This document shows positions 27,499-39,040 of a DNA stretch of 41,745 nucleotides, one piece after another. Numbering within the stretch: position 1 is the stretch's first letter; each line of letters starts with the position of its first letter. The translations under genes were made by a program, and so were the position numbers. Source of the DNA: a virus; IMG/VR virus record IMGVR_UViG_3300037258_000377, positions 1 to 41,745 of that record. The stretch is one strand, 5' to 3'. Under the pieces are notes generated by a model. That model did not search any database and was not told the origin of the DNA. It was given only the letters and a program-made list of their open reading frames with translations.

Positions 27499-27668
27499 CG
27501 GGTTCCCCGTGGAACAGCGTCTATGGGCCGGACAATTGGCTTTTTAGGGCGCCGCTTGGCCGATTTTAGACGCCGGGTATGTCTTTTTCGGTCTATCTCC
27601 GCGCGCGCCGCGACCAGCTCATCGGCGATCTTCTCCGCCCGTTCGGCGAATGTCAGGCGCCGCGCCAT
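27495..27668 (-). CDS. Small basic protein in the transferase cassette (57 aa)
   Basis: The start MARRLTFAERAEKIADELVA at 27668, whose 5' end overlaps the preceding gene by 16 bases. A helix followed by an extremely basic tail (KRHTRRLKSAKRRPKKP). Possibly nucleic-acid binding or a peptide accessory; nothing firm can be said. Confidence 0.5.
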   Translation of the reverse strand: MARRLTFAERAEKIADELVAARAEIDRKRHTRRLKSAKRRPKKPIVRPIDAVPRGTR

Positions 27669-28270
27669 CGAGCCTCCAGATCGGTCGGCGAGAGAGCCTT
27701 GAAGGCGCTCACGGTCGAGCGGCCCGCCGTGCGGCAAATGAAGGTCTCCGTGCCGGCCGCGCGCAGTTGCTGCTCGGCGAGCTTGAACTGCCCGGCCCAG
27801 TCGAGAAGCTTACCCGCCTTCGAGCCGCCGCCGTCCTTCCAGGGGTAGTCGGGGAACCAGTGCCGCTCGCCCTTCGGTCCGAGCATCATGTCGAAGCCGA
27901 CGAGGTACAGATCGCGCGGCCTCAAGTGATAGGCGAGATTCAGCGCACAGAAGCCCGAGTGCCCGCCATCGAGTCGGCCAGGTTCATCGGAGAGCCTGAG
28001 CGCCAGATGATCGTTCTCGAAGGGCGTCACGCATTCGTGGATCCGCCAGTCGATATTGACCAATGTTTTTCGCCGCAGCCAGAGCGGCTTGCCGAAAAGG
28101 CTCACCTGTTTGAATCGGCCCTCGGCCCACATCCGATCCATCGAGACGATCACATCGACGCGCGGCGCGTAGAGCGCCGCATCGTTGACCGCGATCACCA
28201 TGCCGGGCAGGTGCTCCAAGTTGAACTGCGAGGCCGACCAGCCGCCGGCGATGATGGTGATCGCCTTCAT
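27653..28270 (-). CDS. MAF/DUF115-like glycosyltransferase superfamily protein (205 aa)
   Basis: It starts MKAITIIAGGWSASQFNLEH, then I-A-V-N-D-A-A-L-Y, D-V-I-V-S-M-D-R-M-W, and later H-S-G-F-C-A-L-N-L-A-Y-H-L then L-Y-L-V-G-F-D-M-M. This is the pattern of the DUF115/MAF-type (sialyltransferase-like) superfamily, also common in phages as proteins of unknown role. It shares the layout with the protein encoded at 30017-30720. Probably a transferase acting on a nucleotide sugar; substrate unknown. Confidence 0.7.
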   Translation of the reverse strand: MKAITIIAGGWSASQFNLEHLPGMVIAVNDAALYAPRVDVIVSMDRMWAEGRFKQVSLFGKPLWLRRKTLVNIDWRIHECVTPFENDHLALRLSDEPGRLDGGHSGFCALNLAYHLRPRDLYLVGFDMMLGPKGERHWFPDYPWKDGGGSKAGKLLDWAGQFKLAEQQLRAAGTETFICRTAGRSTVSAFKALSPTDLEARWRGA

Positions 28271-28905
28271 GCGACCTCGAAGAGGTGCGTTTCAAATTTG
28301 ACGCCGTAGTGGATGCGCGCTCGATGCTTGAAGTGGGTGGTCATCTGTCGCATCCATTCGTAGCTCCGCTCGGGGTCCTTGATCGGGTGGCGCATGTCGA
28401 CGATGATTTTGGAGCCCGAGTGAGTGTAGGCCCGGACGAACTCCGCGTAACGCGCGGGCTCGATGTGAAAGCACCAGGCCTTCAGCGAGATCACGAGATC
28501 GAAAAAGCAGGGCGCGAGCATCGGACCTGTCGAATTTGCATCCAGGCAATGCACTTTCGGCACACCGTTCAACCTGAGGAACGTCTTGGCGATCTCCATA
28601 TCGTTGAAGGTCGTGGCGTGCGATTCGACGATGGCGCGGTCCGCGAAGCCGTCGAGCAACGTCACCTCGCATTGCTCGCCGAAGTGATGCGCGAGAAGGA
28701 TGTTGATCCCACCGAGCCCCGAGCCCACATCCAGGATCGAGTCGCACGTTGCCGGGAGGTAGGGCTCGATGCACCGAAAATCGCTCGCGAGCGTGTCGAG
28801 GTAGTGGTCGATCCAGGCGCCCTGATCGGCGCGGAAATCCGAGATTGCGCCGCGCTGCATCTGAAGGTACGGGATCGCCTCGGGCGGGATCGCGATTCCG
28901 ATCAC
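28267..28905 (-). CDS. SAM-dependent methyltransferase (212 aa)
   Basis: GTG 28905 is in a GTGA overlap; the upstream frame is shadow. Motif I is S-I-L-D-V-G-S-G-L-G-G, followed by an acidic residue after the second strand (T-L-L-D-G-F), and V-H-C-L-D-A-N, then F-F-D-L-V-I-S-L-K-A-W-C-F-H. A class I methyltransferase fold. The lack of a D/N-P-P-Y motif argues against an adenine-N6 DNA methylase; small molecule or sugar methylation is more likely. Confidence 0.85.
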   Translation of the reverse strand: MIGIAIPPEAIPYLQMQRGAISDFRADQGAWIDHYLDTLASDFRCIEPYLPATCDSILDVGSGLGGINILLAHHFGEQCEVTLLDGFADRAIVESHATTFNDMEIAKTFLRLNGVPKVHCLDANSTGPMLAPCFFDLVISLKAWCFHIEPARYAEFVRAYTHSGSKIIVDMRHPIKDPERSYEWMRQMTTHFKHRARIHYGVKFETHLFEVA

Positions 28906-30083
28906 GGCTTGACCACGGTGAGGGTCAAGTCCTTGCCGCTCATCATCTGGCTTTTCACAAACCAACCGAGGAGCTCCAGCTTCTCGATCCACCAATTCGC
29001 CGGATGCACCGAGAGGTGCGCGTTCCGCCCATCGGGTAGAATGGCGTTGGCGGGCTTGGTTGATATCACGAGGTAGGCGACCCTGCCCGTCAACCTCCAG
29101 ATGTGATCAAGTACCGCCTCTACCTTCGACGGTTCGACGTGCTCGAGGACATCGGTGCAGACCGTCATGTCGCAGGGCTTCGGCATTGAGGCCCGTGTCG
29201 GGATGCCGGGGTCGTACCCTGAGATCCGAAACTCCGCCTTCAGCGATTCCGCGAGCTTGTTCTCGCCGCACCCATAATCGAGCACCGTCTTTGGCTGAAA
29301 TTCGCGCCAGACCTCGCGCACCGCGTCCGTGTGCTTGCCGCCATCGGCGCCCCACTTCCTCTGATTGTGGAGCGTGACCAATTGCGCTCGATAGCCGGGC
29401 GTCGTCATATCGTCCATCTGGTAACGATAGGCGCCGGCGTGACGCATGAACATGCCGATGTGCCCGAGATCGAGGGCGTGGATGCCTTTCATCGCGAGCC
29501 GATACGCGAGCACCGTCGCCGTGGTGCCGAGGCAGAGAAGCACGCGCGCCGAGGTCTGCCCGATCTCCTCCTCGAGGCGATCGATCTCGGCATAGGCATG
29601 CTGGCGCGGTCCAATCACCTCTCGGACGGAGCTCGCCTCGCTCCCGATCATTTCTGTGGTGATGGATTTTTTATCGCCGACCACTAACACAACGTCGACG
29701 CCGCGCCAGAGCCCCCGGACTTGGCTCCAATAGGCCTCCGTGTCTATCCACGGAGCGTTGTCCGGCCTCGTAATGAAACTCGACCAATAGGCGCCCTTCC
29801 CCAAGAGCCCCGCGAACTTCGGCTGGCAATAGCGAAGCCAGCTCTCCTCGCGCGGGCAACCCGAGAAGGGGTTCGGGATGCCCACCATGCAATCGTGCCG
29901 GCCTTTCAGGATCGTCTTCAACTCCGCGGCGAGATTCGGGTCCGGCCGCTGCGAGGTGCAGCCACCGCCGACCGCGCAGCGCCACTCGCCATCACCGAAT
30001 CGCGCGATCGATTGATTCAGGCAATTTGCGAGAGTGCGCTCCTCGTCGAGCACATCGGGATATCTAAGGCCGGCTGGTCGCAC
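28902..30083 (-). CDS. GT-D glycosyltransferase::methyltransferase fusion (393 aa)
   Basis: GTG 30083 with an ideal SD AGGAGG about 5 bases upstream. Residues 20-215 look like a GT-D fold (DUF1792) glycosyltransferase: the hallmark R-F-G-D-G-E (D31-G-E33, the D-x-E metal motif), G-I-P-N-P-F, V-L-V-V-G-D-K, L-L-C-L-G-T-T-A and A-L-D-L-G-H-I-G. Residues about 255-393 are a class I methyltransferase: T-V-L-D-Y-G-C-G-E (267-275), then C-T-D-V-L-E-H-V (309-316). It could add a sugar and methylate it. The start overlaps the previous gene by 67 bases. Confidence 0.82.
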   Translation of the reverse strand: MRPAGLRYPDVLDEERTLANCLNQSIARFGDGEWRCAVGGGCTSQRPDPNLAAELKTILKGRHDCMVGIPNPFSGCPREESWLRYCQPKFAGLLGKGAYWSSFITRPDNAPWIDTEAYWSQVRGLWRGVDVVLVVGDKKSITTEMIGSEASSVREVIGPRQHAYAEIDRLEEEIGQTSARVLLCLGTTATVLAYRLAMKGIHALDLGHIGMFMRHAGAYRYQMDDMTTPGYRAQLVTLHNQRKWGADGGKHTDAVREVWREFQPKTVLDYGCGENKLAESLKAEFRISGYDPGIPTRASMPKPCDMTVCTDVLEHVEPSKVEAVLDHIWRLTGRVAYLVISTKPANAILPDGRNAHLSVHPANWWIEKLELLGWFVKSQMMSGKDLTLTVVKP

Positions 30084-30720
30084 AGTTCCTCCTGAATCGT
30101 TGAGCGTCGAAAGCAGCGAAGAGCGGTCTGCCGCGAACAGTTCACGACCTCGACGCCGGCGCCCTCGAGATCGCGCGCAAGGGTCGCCATGGCTGTCGCC
30201 CAGATCGGAAACCGTCCGCCGTTACCTAATCCCCGCGGGTGGTCCCCATGCCAGTGGCTTTTGCCGCCGGTGCGCTGGAAATCAAACCCGAGGAGGAGGA
30301 TACGCTTCGCGCCAAAGAGATAGGCCAGTGAAATCGCCTGGTAGCCGGAATTCTTGCCCGTGTGGATCGAGGTCGCCTCGCGCGAGAGGCCATTTCGATC
30401 CTGGCCGTAGATCCACGAAAGCCCGTACCGATCGCGGGCGGCGGTCGAGACGGTCCACATCTCGCCATGGAAGCACGTCGAGAGCTCGGGGAAATATCGG
30501 TTCCACCAGGTCGCATCGCAGCCGTAGAGACAGTCCGCCCAGAGCGCCAGGCGAAAGCTCGTGTTCACGACTATGGTTTTGGCTCGTCCTCGGCAGTGGT
30601 TCGCGTCCGCCGGCGTAGAGCTCGGCCCACTCGCGATAATGCAGACGGTCTCGCCTGCCCATCGTCCTTGAGGTCCGCCGAGTTTTGGTTTGCCGGATCG
30701 GGCGGGATTTCCGGCTCGTC
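30017..30720 (-). CDS. MAF/DUF115-like transferase, apparently made by -1 frameshift
   Basis: The annotated GTG at 30568 starts mid-domain (V-N-T-S-F-R-L-A-L-W-A-D). The same frame is open upstream and encodes E-T-V-C-I-I-A-S-G-P-S, the family's N-terminal nucleotide-binding motif, but has no ATG, GTG, TTG or CTG in the 51 codons from 30721 to 30569. Exactly there the preceding gene has a G-GGA-AAA slippery heptamer, and its -1 frame is this one. The later part has S-G-Y-Q-A-I-S-L-A-Y then I-L-L-L-G-F-D-F-Q. A one-base assembly or natural indel near 30655, with a start at ATG 30662, is the alternative. Confidence 0.65.
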
Positions 30721-30909
30721 TTTTCCCTTGTTGCGCTCCGCGCCGGTGAAGGCCTGGACGCGCGCGGGCCTCGGCACATCGACGCGGATTTCCTGCGCCT
30801 TGCCGGAGCTGATCAAATCGTTGCCGTAGGAATTCTCGGCGGTGAAGTTCTGGCCGTTCCGGATCATGCCGTATCGGCTCTTGAAGGTGCGAGTCGCCCT
30901 TAATTGCAT
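30571..30909 (-). CDS. Small protein downstream of the capsid gene (112 aa)
   Basis: MQLRATRTFKSRYGMIRNGQ, N-F-T-A-E-N-S-Y-G-N-D-L-I-S-S-G-K-A-Q-E: a short beta/alpha N-terminal domain of a kind often encoded just after the major capsid gene in HK97-type phages. After residue 60 it becomes a low-complexity Pro/Arg tail, which is the region read in two frames. Residues 61-63 (K-G-K) carry the slippery heptamer. Function unknown; the fused form is described separately. Confidence 0.65.
   Translation of the reverse strand: MQLRATRTFKSRYGMIRNGQNFTAENSYGNDLISSGKAQEIRVDVPRPARVQAFTGAERNKGKDEPEIPPDPANQNSADLKDDGQARPSALSRVGRALRRRTRTTAEDEPKP
30721..30727 (-). promoter_or_regulatory. Candidate -1 slippery heptamer G-GGA-AAA
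   Basis: In frame for codons AAG GGA AAA (residues 61-63 of the 112-aa protein), the heptamer fits X-XXY-YYZ, the same type as lambda's G-GGA-AAG. The -1 frame stays open for 51 codons into the downstream transferase-like gene. Confidence 0.65.
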
Positions 30910-30989: not shown

Positions 30990-32351
30990 TCAGGCCGTAT
31001 CGCTAGAGCCCGCGGGGAAGCTTCCGTAGATGATCGCGGCAGGCCGCGTCACCGCCAACGCCAGGCGCTCCTCGCACAGAATCGTAACGAGGTTCTGGAT
31101 GAAATTGGTCCCGGTCTCGGTCGAGACGAGGATCTGCGCCTGCTCGCGATCGAAGATCATCGCGGCCAATTGGAACGCACCGACCAGGAAGTCGCCGGTG
31201 TTCATCGTGTAGCCCACGACCACAGGCACGCCCCAGAGCATCGGGGGAGTGGACTGGGAGGCGGACGCCAGGATGTACCGACCGAACTTGTCCTTGGTGA
31301 GCTCCAAGGCATGCCAGTCGATCGGCGAGAGTACGATGCCGGTGGTCGGGTAGAACGCCAACTGCACCTGCAACATCGCGTGGCGGATCACATCGATTCG
31401 GGTATCGTCCGCCTTCGCGTACGCATCCGAATAGGCGGTCGCCTGCGGCACGAGGCCGTTGATGTTGTCGCCCACGCCGTCGCCGAACAGCAATTGCTCT
31501 TCCTCGGCGTACTTGAGGCCCCACGAGAGGCGCGCATCGATCAGCGTCGCCAACTGTTTGAAGTCGGCGAGAATTTGCTTCGAGGCCTGAATCCAGTGAG
31601 CGATCGTCGACACGGCAACGTTCATGCGCTCGTACGTGATGTTGGACTGGGGCTTCGTCGCACCCTCCGACACCACCGCGGCATTGTTGGTGAACACCAA
31701 CTCCCGCACCCACTCGATCAGGTTCGTCTCGGTCGTGCCCTTCGCGAGCAAGTCCCGAACGGTCAGCGGCATGAAAGGCGGGATCACCGGAGTCGGCAGA
31801 AACTCGGGGAACGCACCACCGCCGCCCGATAGCGGCTGGCTGCCGATCGGCGCATAGGTGGTCTTGAACTTGTAGGGCGCCGACTGGCGCTTCAAGGTCG
31901 GACCCTGCGCGGCGAATGCCTTCCACTCATCGGACTCGATGAACCGATCGCCGAGCGATTTCAACTTCTCCGCACCGAAGCCGCCCTTGCCCAGAGTCAA
32001 AATGCGCTGCTCCAGAGCGAGAATCCGGGCGTCGGATTTTTCTTTCTCCGCCTGATAATCGGCGACCTTCTTGGCGCCCTCGGTGTTGAGCGTGGCGACC
32101 GCGGTCTTGGTGCCTTCCTGGATCGCGCCGAAGGTTTTCAGATCCTCTTCGATCTTTTTGTGGACCTTCGCTACTTCCTCGAAATGCGCCTTGAGCGCGG
32201 TGGCGACGGCGGACTTGATCTTTTCATCGTCCTCGCCTTCGCGAGCGAGCTGCACCACGCCTTCGTGCATGTAGCCCTCGTTGAACAGGACGCGGCTGGT
32301 CGCCATATCGATGACGCCGCGGGTGATGATGAACCGTGAGGCTCGTGACAT
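30990..32351 (-). CDS. HK97-type major capsid protein (453 aa)
   Basis: SD AAGGAG about 9 bases before ATG 32351. Residues about 30-130 are a charged coiled coil (the delta/scaffold domain, K-I-E-E-D-L-K, Y-Q-A-E-K-E-K-S-D-A-R); the rest is the HK97 fold, with P-P-F-M-P-L-T-V-R-D-L-L, E-W-V-R-E-L-V-F, A-H-W-I-Q-A-S-K-Q-I-L-A-D and W-G-V-P-V-V-V-G-Y. The prohead protease next door should remove the delta domain. The start could also be the Met at residue 16. Confidence 0.93.
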   Translation of the reverse strand: MSRASRFIITRGVIDMATSRVLFNEGYMHEGVVQLAREGEDDEKIKSAVATALKAHFEEVAKVHKKIEEDLKTFGAIQEGTKTAVATLNTEGAKKVADYQAEKEKSDARILALEQRILTLGKGGFGAEKLKSLGDRFIESDEWKAFAAQGPTLKRQSAPYKFKTTYAPIGSQPLSGGGGAFPEFLPTPVIPPFMPLTVRDLLAKGTTETNLIEWVRELVFTNNAAVVSEGATKPQSNITYERMNVAVSTIAHWIQASKQILADFKQLATLIDARLSWGLKYAEEEQLLFGDGVGDNINGLVPQATAYSDAYAKADDTRIDVIRHAMLQVQLAFYPTTGIVLSPIDWHALELTKDKFGRYILASASQSTPPMLWGVPVVVGYTMNTGDFLVGAFQLAAMIFDREQAQILVSTETGTNFIQNLVTILCEERLALAVTRPAAIIYGSFPAGSSDTA

Positions 32352-37352: not shown

Positions 37353-38501
37353 TCAGGTGGACCAAGAATGCAGCCGATCAGCGTCCTCGGTCGGCATCGG
37401 CGAGCCCACGTACTCGAAGCTCGCCGTCATTCGATTCGAGGCGCGACTGTGCGCGAGCTGCGCGGCGAAGCGCCCGGTATCGGGGGCAGTCGTGCCAGGC
37501 GCTCGAATCATCCACCAGTCGGCAGAACGGATGGCACTCGCGATCTCGGCAGGATGGCCCGTATTCCTGAAAACCCGAAGCCCAAGACCGGCCCACATCG
37601 AGGCGAGGTACGTGATGAGCGTCGAGCCAATCCCCAACCCTTGAAAGTCGGGCAGACAAACGGATCGATGCCCGCGCACCGCTTTCCGCGAATCTTTGAG
37701 CTTGCCGAAAAAGGGCAGGTACGAGTGGAAGGCGACAGGCCGTCCGTCGAGAAAGGCGCAGAAACATGCGGCGCTCCGATTGAGCTCGGCGCTCAGATAG
37801 TGATGGTGGGAGAAGATTTTCCAGGCCGAATGCGGGACGCGGGAGATTTGGAGCTCGAGGGTGGGCCTTCGCCGAAGAGACCTCCACTCGAAGCGATTCT
37901 CGGAAGGCTCGTACACCCAGTCGGGTTGGAGCCACTCGTCGATATCGTAGTGGCAGGAGACGGCGACCAATTTCGATGCGCGCCGGCGCACCGTCTTAGC
38001 GATCGCGGAGCTTCCGATCTGCGCGACGCGCCGGTCGACGACAGACGTAAATTCGTCGATCACCGCGAGTGCCGGGAGCTCCGCCATCGCCCGCGCAATC
38101 GTCGCTCGGAATTGCTCGCCATTCGAGAGGACCGAAAACGGCCTGAGCCATGACGGCGGCGAGGAGAAGCCCACCGAGTTTAGGAGGCTCGTGATGTCCT
38201 TGATCGACATCTCGGCCGGGAAATCGTCCACCAAGGCTGAGTCGGACCGCCATTGAAAACCTCGCACGTATTCTGCCGACCAAAGTTCCCGCGCGATGGT
38301 GGACTTGCCCGAGCCCGAAGGGCCGACGATGAGCCCGACGTTCCAATCGCGATCGTCGATTGGAAGCTCGACCTCCCATGACACCGCGGACTTCTCCGCC
38401 GGCGGCACGTCGAAAATTCCCTCGAGCTGCATCACCCGACCCGTCCGATTGATCGGCGTCGAGACGGAGATCCGCCGCTTTAGCGCACCAGTGCTCGACA
38501 T
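37353..38501 (-). CDS. ABC-type ATPase fused to a GNAT acetyltransferase domain (382 aa)
   Basis: Start MSSTGALKRRISVSTPINRT at 38501. ABC part: Walker A G-P-S-G-S-G-K-S-T (60-68), signature L-S-N-G-E-Q (125-130), Walker B L-A-V-I-D-E (145-150), H-loop S-C-H-Y-D (182-186). No membrane segments, so it is a soluble ATPase, not a transporter. GNAT part: H-H-H-Y-L-S-A-E-L-N, V-A-F-H-S-Y-L-P-F, and Q-G-L-G-I-G (287-292), the acetyl-CoA-binding motif. Phage ABC::GNAT proteins of this form exist; Mu Mom, a DNA-modifying protein, is also GNAT-like. It follows a ParB-like gene with a 22-base overlap. Confidence 0.85.
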   Translation of the reverse strand: MSSTGALKRRISVSTPINRTGRVMQLEGIFDVPPAEKSAVSWEVELPIDDRDWNVGLIVGPSGSGKSTIARELWSAEYVRGFQWRSDSALVDDFPAEMSIKDITSLLNSVGFSSPPSWLRPFSVLSNGEQFRATIARAMAELPALAVIDEFTSVVDRRVAQIGSSAIAKTVRRRASKLVAVSCHYDIDEWLQPDWVYEPSENRFEWRSLRRRPTLELQISRVPHSAWKIFSHHHYLSAELNRSAACFCAFLDGRPVAFHSYLPFFGKLKDSRKAVRGHRSVCLPDFQGLGIGSTLITYLASMWAGLGLRVFRNTGHPAEIASAIRSADWWMIRAPGTTAPDTGRFAAQLAHSRASNRMTASFEYVGSPMPTEDADRLHSWST

Positions 38502-39040
38502 TTGAAGCCCTCGGCGGTGAGTTTCTCCAAGAGCTGACGCTGGCTGAGCTCGCCGGCGCACGTCACGAGCACGTCATAGGCGCTCGGAATGAACTCGAAG
38601 CCGTCCGTTTTCTTGCGGCCATCGCCCAGTTTCACCGTCAAAGACTCGAATTCTTGCAGGCCAACTCCGGTAAAACCGAGCAAATCCGCGGCTTTTAGCT
38701 CGGAAAGTTCGGCTGTGAGGAGCTTCATGTCCCATCCACCGTTCTCGGCGAGCTTATTGTCGGCGATCAGGTAGGCCCGAAGCTCAGTCTCCGACCAATC
38801 GCCGCCGATGGTGATCACCGGCACCTGTTTCATCGCGAGCTGCCGAGCGGCGGCGAGACGTCCATGGCCCGCGATGATCGTGCCGTCCTCGCGCGCGAGA
38901 ATCGGTTGCGTCCAGCCGAATTTGCCGATCGAGGCCACGAGCTCCGCCACCTGCTCGGCGGGATGCGTCTTCGCGTTCTTCGGGTGCGGCTTCAGCCAAT
39001 CGAGCCGTTTCAAAACTACCTTCGGTGCCGATTTGCTCAT
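38480..39040 (-). CDS. ParB-like N-terminal-domain protein (186 aa)
   Basis: Residues about 10-110 follow the ParB/sulfiredoxin fold: N-A-K-T-H-P-A-E-Q-V-A-E-L-V-A-S-I, F-G-W-T-Q-P-I-L-A, G-T-I-I-A-G-H-G-R-L-A-A-A-R (the nucleotide-binding G-H-x-R box) and V-P-V-I-T-I. The C-terminal part has no HTH I can see. Phage proteins with this domain are often next to DNA-modification or terminase genes. DNA binding, nicking or CTPase action are all possible; none is shown by sequence alone. Confidence 0.85.
   Translation of the reverse strand: MSKSAPKVVLKRLDWLKPHPKNAKTHPAEQVAELVASIGKFGWTQPILAREDGTIIAGHGRLAAARQLAMKQVPVITIGGDWSETELRAYLIADNKLAENGGWDMKLLTAELSELKAADLLGFTGVGLQEFESLTVKLGDGRKKTDGFEFIPSAYDVLVTCAGELSQRQLLEKLTAEGFKCRALVR

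Follow-up and report, generated by a model that had tools for sequence, protein, structure and literature searches.

The window, i.e., the whole 41.7-kb stretch of DNA that was analyzed, is an IMG/VR virus contig without a host genome. On its minus strand, the gene of a major capsid protein is directly followed by a small gene (hereafter the donor gene), the distal part of which overlaps the coding sequence of a sialyltransferase-like enzyme in another frame. The features discussed below are the following (all on the minus strand):

30990–32351, minus: major capsid protein gene with the HK97 fold (Pfam PF05065, 2.9e-48; PHROG 10, 8.9e-65), directly upstream of the donor gene
30571–30909, minus: zero-frame donor gene, whose unshifted product has 112 amino acids (PHROG 2616, 1.8e-6)
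30784–30909, minus: N-terminal domain, residues 1–42, with the element order b-b-b-b-a-b (AlphaFold), gpFI-C-like by a profile match to the C terminus of lambda gpFI
30721–30727, minus: putative slippery heptamer G-GGA-AAA in the zero-frame phase, read from the sequence; the aligned sites of relatives are GGGAAAA or AAAAAAA
30692–30715, minus: predicted stimulatory hairpin GCCGGA...UCCGGC, 5 nt past the heptamer (RNA folding)
30017–30721, minus: −1 frame part of the predicted fusion, 234 amino acids, linker plus sialyltransferase-like enzyme (PHROG 4603, 4.6e-49), with the stop codon at 30019–30017
30620–30643, minus: first core motif of the enzyme, CIIASGPS, upstream of any start codon, with invariant A-G-P-S columns in the enzyme alignment A2
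30571–30727, minus: double-coding stretch, i.e., zero-frame tail and −1 frame N terminus of the enzyme, the frames being read from the sequence
28902–30083, minus: next gene, a GT-D glycosyltransferase fused to a methyltransferase (Pfam PF08759, 1.1e-25; PF13489, 1.3e-8), whose GTG start overlaps the end of the enzyme
27653–28270, minus: a further enzyme of PHROG 4603, starting at an ordinary ATG, which serves as an internal control in the window

The enzyme frame is open from 30913 to 30017 (minus strand), and its earliest possible start is the GTG at 30568, which lies inside the enzyme domain. A preliminary description of this DNA had already placed the first start of the frame in the middle of the enzyme, and this holds with TTG included. 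There are 51 startless codons between the heptamer and this GTG, or 115 counting from 30913, and it is in this stretch that the residues ETVCIIASGPS are encoded, with the core motif at 30643–30620. The heptamer at 30727–30721 was likewise correctly assigned to the phase of the donor gene, with the enzyme in the donor's −1 frame; after a −1 slip at this site, 63 residues of the zero frame are continued by 234 of the enzyme frame, and translation of this continuation confirms the length of 297 amino acids given earlier. The slip is the only evident way to an intact enzyme.

The final 22 codons of the enzyme frame (30017–30083, minus strand) overlap the next gene at its GTG start, and this tail is not conserved, since the relatives stop near "CFxRxxLExxL". 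The genes after the enzyme encode transferases and methyltransferases: from 30083 down to 26033 (minus strand), within the head module, overlapping genes were found for the GT-D and methyltransferase fusion, a methyltransferase, the second PHROG 4603 enzyme, a family-2 glycosyltransferase, and another glycosyltransferase, a run that looks like a glycan-building cassette. Elsewhere in the window, beside the terminase region (37353–38561, minus strand), the translation of an ORF resembles an ATP-binding domain with an acetyltransferase-like part after it.

The PHROG 4603 profile matched by the enzyme is annotated as "alpha-2,3-sialyltransferase", and the conserved core of the enzyme is invariant in alignment A2; a Pfam scan of the enzyme gave MptE-like only below the cut-off. 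The structural model of the enzyme has a pLDDT of 90, and human sialyltransferase ST6GALNAC2 is seemingly its most plausible solved relative, by a weak match (probability 0.99, TM 0.47, E 0.005). The small domain is modeled with a pLDDT of 98 over residues 1–40 (AlphaFold). Its profile scores 10.4 bits against the C terminus of lambda gpFI, compared with at most 5.2 bits for 200 shuffles, with only 21 to 27 residues aligned. A fold search of the PDB with the small domain returned ribosomal protein L9-type structures, GINS, and Bacillus subtilis YqbF, all with E > 0.1, and a PDB sequence search with either profile alignment gave no significant match. In lambda, the gpFI gene occupies the slot directly after the capsid gene, i.e., the slot of the donor gene, and gpFI reportedly uses its C-terminal domain to bind the head protein (Popovic 2012; described in part in PMC4493119). 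The helical N-terminal domain of the gpFI type is absent from the small protein, whose small domain begins at residue 1, and for this reason we do not file it as gpFI. Taken by its weak sequence match and its same gene position, the N-terminal domain appears to resemble the capsid-binding domain of gpFI; that it docks on the capsid protein has, in our estimate, about an even chance.

We compared 134 non-redundant enzyme loci collected from IMG/VR, GTDB genomes, and phage records, at an identity cut of about 82%. No start codon precedes the GPS motif in 75 of the 134 loci, and in all 75 an ORF in the +1 relation (which places the enzyme in its −1 frame) runs past the motif. The −1 relation of the enzyme to the small gene was found in every one of the 86 loci in which the two overlap, and the nearest match to the N-terminal domain lies in the same phase at 76 of 76 loci. 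The donor gene directly follows the capsid gene at 77 of 82 loci, and its zero-frame stop lies 55 to 106 nt beyond the GPS motif in 80% of the relatives. The whole open frame of the enzyme is startless at 72 of the 86 overlap loci versus none of the 32 non-overlap loci (Fisher p 3e-18); where no overlapping small gene precedes the enzyme, an ordinary start was found at every locus (32/32). Relatives that have an ordinary start but lack the heptamer, which the preliminary description had set against its own reading, occur only where the enzyme is not out of frame behind the small gene.

From the end of the small domain, or from the slip window, to the motif, the 86 overlap loci contain a single ATG, GTG, or TTG among 1,952 enzyme-frame codons. 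Please note that we dropped this depletion as a sign of selection, as codon shuffling also predicts few such codons (1.4 expected in that window). The basic character of the zero-frame tail was likewise dropped as proof of a selected unshifted product, as this stretch is even more basic in its third frame. The window's small protein, used as a query in tblastn of phages and in a scan of IMG/VR, gave no match; a scan with another small protein returned 11 loci, at each of which the enzyme is read in the −1 frame, a result that is biased because the query included the overlap tail.

Phages D3, PMG1 (CCCAAAG), and Psp6 have the same frameshift layout, and in D3 the small protein would pass into the enzyme frame at C CCA AAG. 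The annotated enzyme starts of D3 orf7 (L002, 2588–3046) and Psp6 gene 48 (L088, 2600–3061) lie inside the domain, so that the N-terminal strand and the GPS motif are left out of both enzyme records, as expected if the annotators found no upstream start. There are also PHROG 4603 enzymes that stand alone with their own start, i.e., PAJU2 gp10 and P7 hdmB. In phage P7 (L087, 1811–3810), an hdmA/hdmB/hdmC operon is annotated as head morphogenesis, and hdmB, with its own ATG, overlaps the small gene hdmA.

The comparison of homologues that had been proposed, for the heptamer and for the double-frame overlap, bears out both: the frame relation is the one given above, and heptamers of the form XXXAAAN or XXXTTTN occur in the zero phase at 36 of the 86 overlap loci, compared with 4.1 ± 1.9 by codon shuffling (maximum 11 in 1000), an enrichment of about nine times, and with 9 and 8 loci in the remaining two phases. 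GGGAAAA is the dominant heptamer, followed by AAAAAAA, CCCTTTG, and CCCAAAG, and within the group of the window the aligned site stays GGGAAAA or AAAAAAA despite differing residues (KGK, QGK, LGK, QKK, and EKK). Most loci without a strong heptamer have another signal, C CCY: C CCT or C CCC is found in the zero phase at 60 loci versus 31.5 ± 3.9 by codon shuffling, mostly grouped at a distance of 42 or 48 nt from the downstream motif, and 43 of the 86 loci rely on this four-base sequence and not on a classical two-tRNA −1 site. The codon before C CCY is one of ten different codons in 33 loci, encoding many amino acids and always ending in C, although the final C is partly a selection criterion of these 33 loci, the independent evidence being the codon-shuffle enrichment. 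At the loci L055, L199, L213, and L226 and about 35 others, a hairpin begins about 5 nt past the CCY codon of just one C CCY tetramer; the −1 shift apparently takes place at this tetramer, which would be mechanistically unusual. Seven of the 86 loci lack both signals, i.e., the strong heptamer and C CCY. The close relatives L021, L022, and L026 have GGG GAA GGT in the zero frame in common and are without a standard heptamer.

The hairpin predicted in the window (30692–30715) has a folding energy of −10.8 kcal/mol with a z-score of −2.35 for a 26-nt stretch, which is not significant over a 63-nt stretch. Among the relatives, the downstream hairpin signal is weak at heptamer loci (mean z −0.65); past C CCY the hairpin is GC-rich, with a mean folding z of −1.76 downstream versus −0.31 upstream. 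Arm pairing within the same locus reached 276, compared with a permutation mean of 268 and a maximum of 275 (5,000 permutations, relatedness uncorrected), and is partly a by-product of coding, as the arms encode the conserved G-R-W and A-S-G-P. We consider the GC-rich hairpin downstream of C CCY probable, and grade it no higher because the permutation excess is slight and the residues encoded by the two arms are conserved.

The small domain and the enzyme form one uninterrupted gene in at least four lineages (L028/L029, L130/L127, L060/L061, and L102). These natural fusions, which need no frameshift, are located as follows:

L028, 5821–6612: in-frame fusion gene, directly behind the capsid gene, i.e., in the slot of the frameshift pair in other phages
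L130, 2050–2844: in-frame fusion gene
L060, 5797–6600: in-frame fusion gene, N-terminal domain recognized weakly, mainly by eye and by weak profile scores
L102, 3629–4609: in-frame fusion gene, N-terminal domain recognized in the same weak way

As the same two domains are joined without interruption in these lineages, the fusion is likely the functional product of the frameshift loci as well.

We consider it highly probable that a programmed −1 ribosomal frameshift yields a fusion of the small protein and the enzyme. Most ribosomes would translate the small gene to its own stop and release the product of 112 amino acids. A fraction would slip back one base at G GGA AAA (30727–30721), possibly aided by the hairpin 5 nt downstream, and would then continue in the enzyme frame to give the fusion of 297 amino acids, composed of the N-terminal domain, the linker, and the sialyltransferase-like (PHROG 4603) enzyme. 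The gpFI-C-like domain may then bind the capsid protein and bring few copies of the enzyme onto the assembling head, where the docked enzyme could glycosylate the head or some other component of it, acting with the products of the following transferase and methyltransferase genes. Glycosylation of the head by a capsid-docked enzyme is, in our opinion, the likeliest role, and we propose it tentatively.

The frameshift reading, as it stood in the preliminary description, survives all tests applied here, i.e., those of the conserved phase, the missing starts, the in-phase slip sites, the ordinary starts at loci that lack the overlapping small gene, and the in-frame fusions. The enzyme may instead be translated alone, with a non-standard codon as its start or through re-initiation or coupling within the small gene. 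No ATG, GTG, or TTG is at hand, rare starts do exist in bacteria, and a few loci have a GTG or TTG farther upstream (D3 group, −22 codons). However, CTG, ATH, or ACG with an SD-like sequence occurs in the enzyme frame at only 2 of the 86 loci, compared with 12 and 11 in the other frames, and on this count we rejected rare start codons; moreover, the fixed −1 phase, the in-phase heptamers, and the in-frame fusions would be left unexplained, and the relatives away from the small gene all have ordinary starts. Separate translation is thus improbable. Slippage of RNA polymerase in place of a ribosomal shift is suggested by runs of 7 to 9 A in the relatives L007, L008, L010, L148, and L170, but long homopolymers are absent from the window's GGGAAAA and also from CCCTTTG, CCCAAAG, and C CCY, and the heptamer enrichment is phase-specific, which points to codons; we regard transcriptional slippage as highly improbable. 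In a single metagenomic contig, one might suspect gene decay or an indel from sequencing or assembly, and an indel near 30655 had been named as the thing to look for. The same layout at 86 non-redundant loci, from dozens of independent metagenomic contigs and isolate genomes and from the classic phages D3, PMG1, and Psp6, refutes both, and the core of the enzyme is intact with its residues invariant; the probability left to an indel or a pseudogene is negligible.

A different doubt concerns the purpose of the fusion rather than its synthesis. The N-terminal domain may be unrelated to the capsid and only stabilize or dose an enzyme that acts on host surface glycans: phage transferases often modify the host O-antigen, related enzymes without the domain exist, e.g., in PAJU2 and P7, and docking follows from weak similarity and position. 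On the other hand, the in-frame fusion lineages keep the N-terminal domain, the donor gene stands directly after the capsid gene at nearly all loci scored, and the domain has its gpFI-C-like profile match. We hold a capsid-unrelated domain to be possible, if somewhat doubtful.

The preliminary description knew of no transferase tethered in this way to a head-region protein, and we found no description of a frameshift between a small head protein and an enzyme in the open-access full-text literature; earlier mention elsewhere is possible. A frameshift that would tie a modifying enzyme to the virus shell appears to be conserved in many tailed phages and, apparently, unreported. It corrects the annotation of PHROG 4603 enzymes in known phages, as the starts of D3 and Psp6 sit inside the domain. 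The −1 frameshift sites known beyond the tail-chaperone class gain a large conserved group, in which the apparent C CCY type is included. A way is also suggested in which phages could direct a glycosylation enzyme to their own head, and the substrate of PHROG 4603 enzymes thereby becomes directly testable.

Lambda G/GT is a −1 shift at a G GGA AAR-type heptamer in a morphogenesis gene. Frameshifts of tail-assembly chaperones are conserved across phages (Xu, Hendrix and Duda 2004, as cited in PMC10885494). The window is alike in shift, heptamer type, morphogenesis gene, and conservation; however, lambda G/GT belongs to the tail module and joins two chaperone domains, whereas the frameshift described here lies in the head module and adds an enzyme. 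In Lactobacillus phage A2, in gene 10 of T3 and T7, and in Listeria phages A118, A500, and PSA (PMC5009743), frameshifted capsid proteins likewise place a C-terminal domain on a minority of copies by a shift in a head gene; these append structural parts, mostly Ig-like, in contrast to the predicted transferase of the window, where the donor is not the capsid protein. For TP901-1, a −1 frameshift was proposed to place a gpFI-like domain on the major head protein, with Western blots that showed no second band (Popovic 2012, as discussed in PMC4493119). As far as that account goes, the two cases share a gpFI-like domain as well as a −1 shift within the head module, but the gpFI-like part is the appended piece in TP901-1 and the donor in the window, where the enzyme is appended. 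PAJU2 gp10 and P7 hdmB belong to the same enzyme family and differ by their own start codon and by having no −1 overlap with a small head gene. The retroviral Gag-Pol frameshift (PMC5009743) is alike in logic, in that a structural domain carries few copies of an enzyme to the particle, as docking would do in the window, although the proteins are unrelated and the virus is an RNA virus. By this analogy, and tentatively, the loci may represent a widespread Gag-Pol-like strategy, in which a packaging-chaperone-like donor loads few copies of a sialyltransferase-like enzyme on assembling heads to glycosylate the capsid, with the shift made through C CCY and a hairpin in some lineages and hard-wired as a gene fusion in others.
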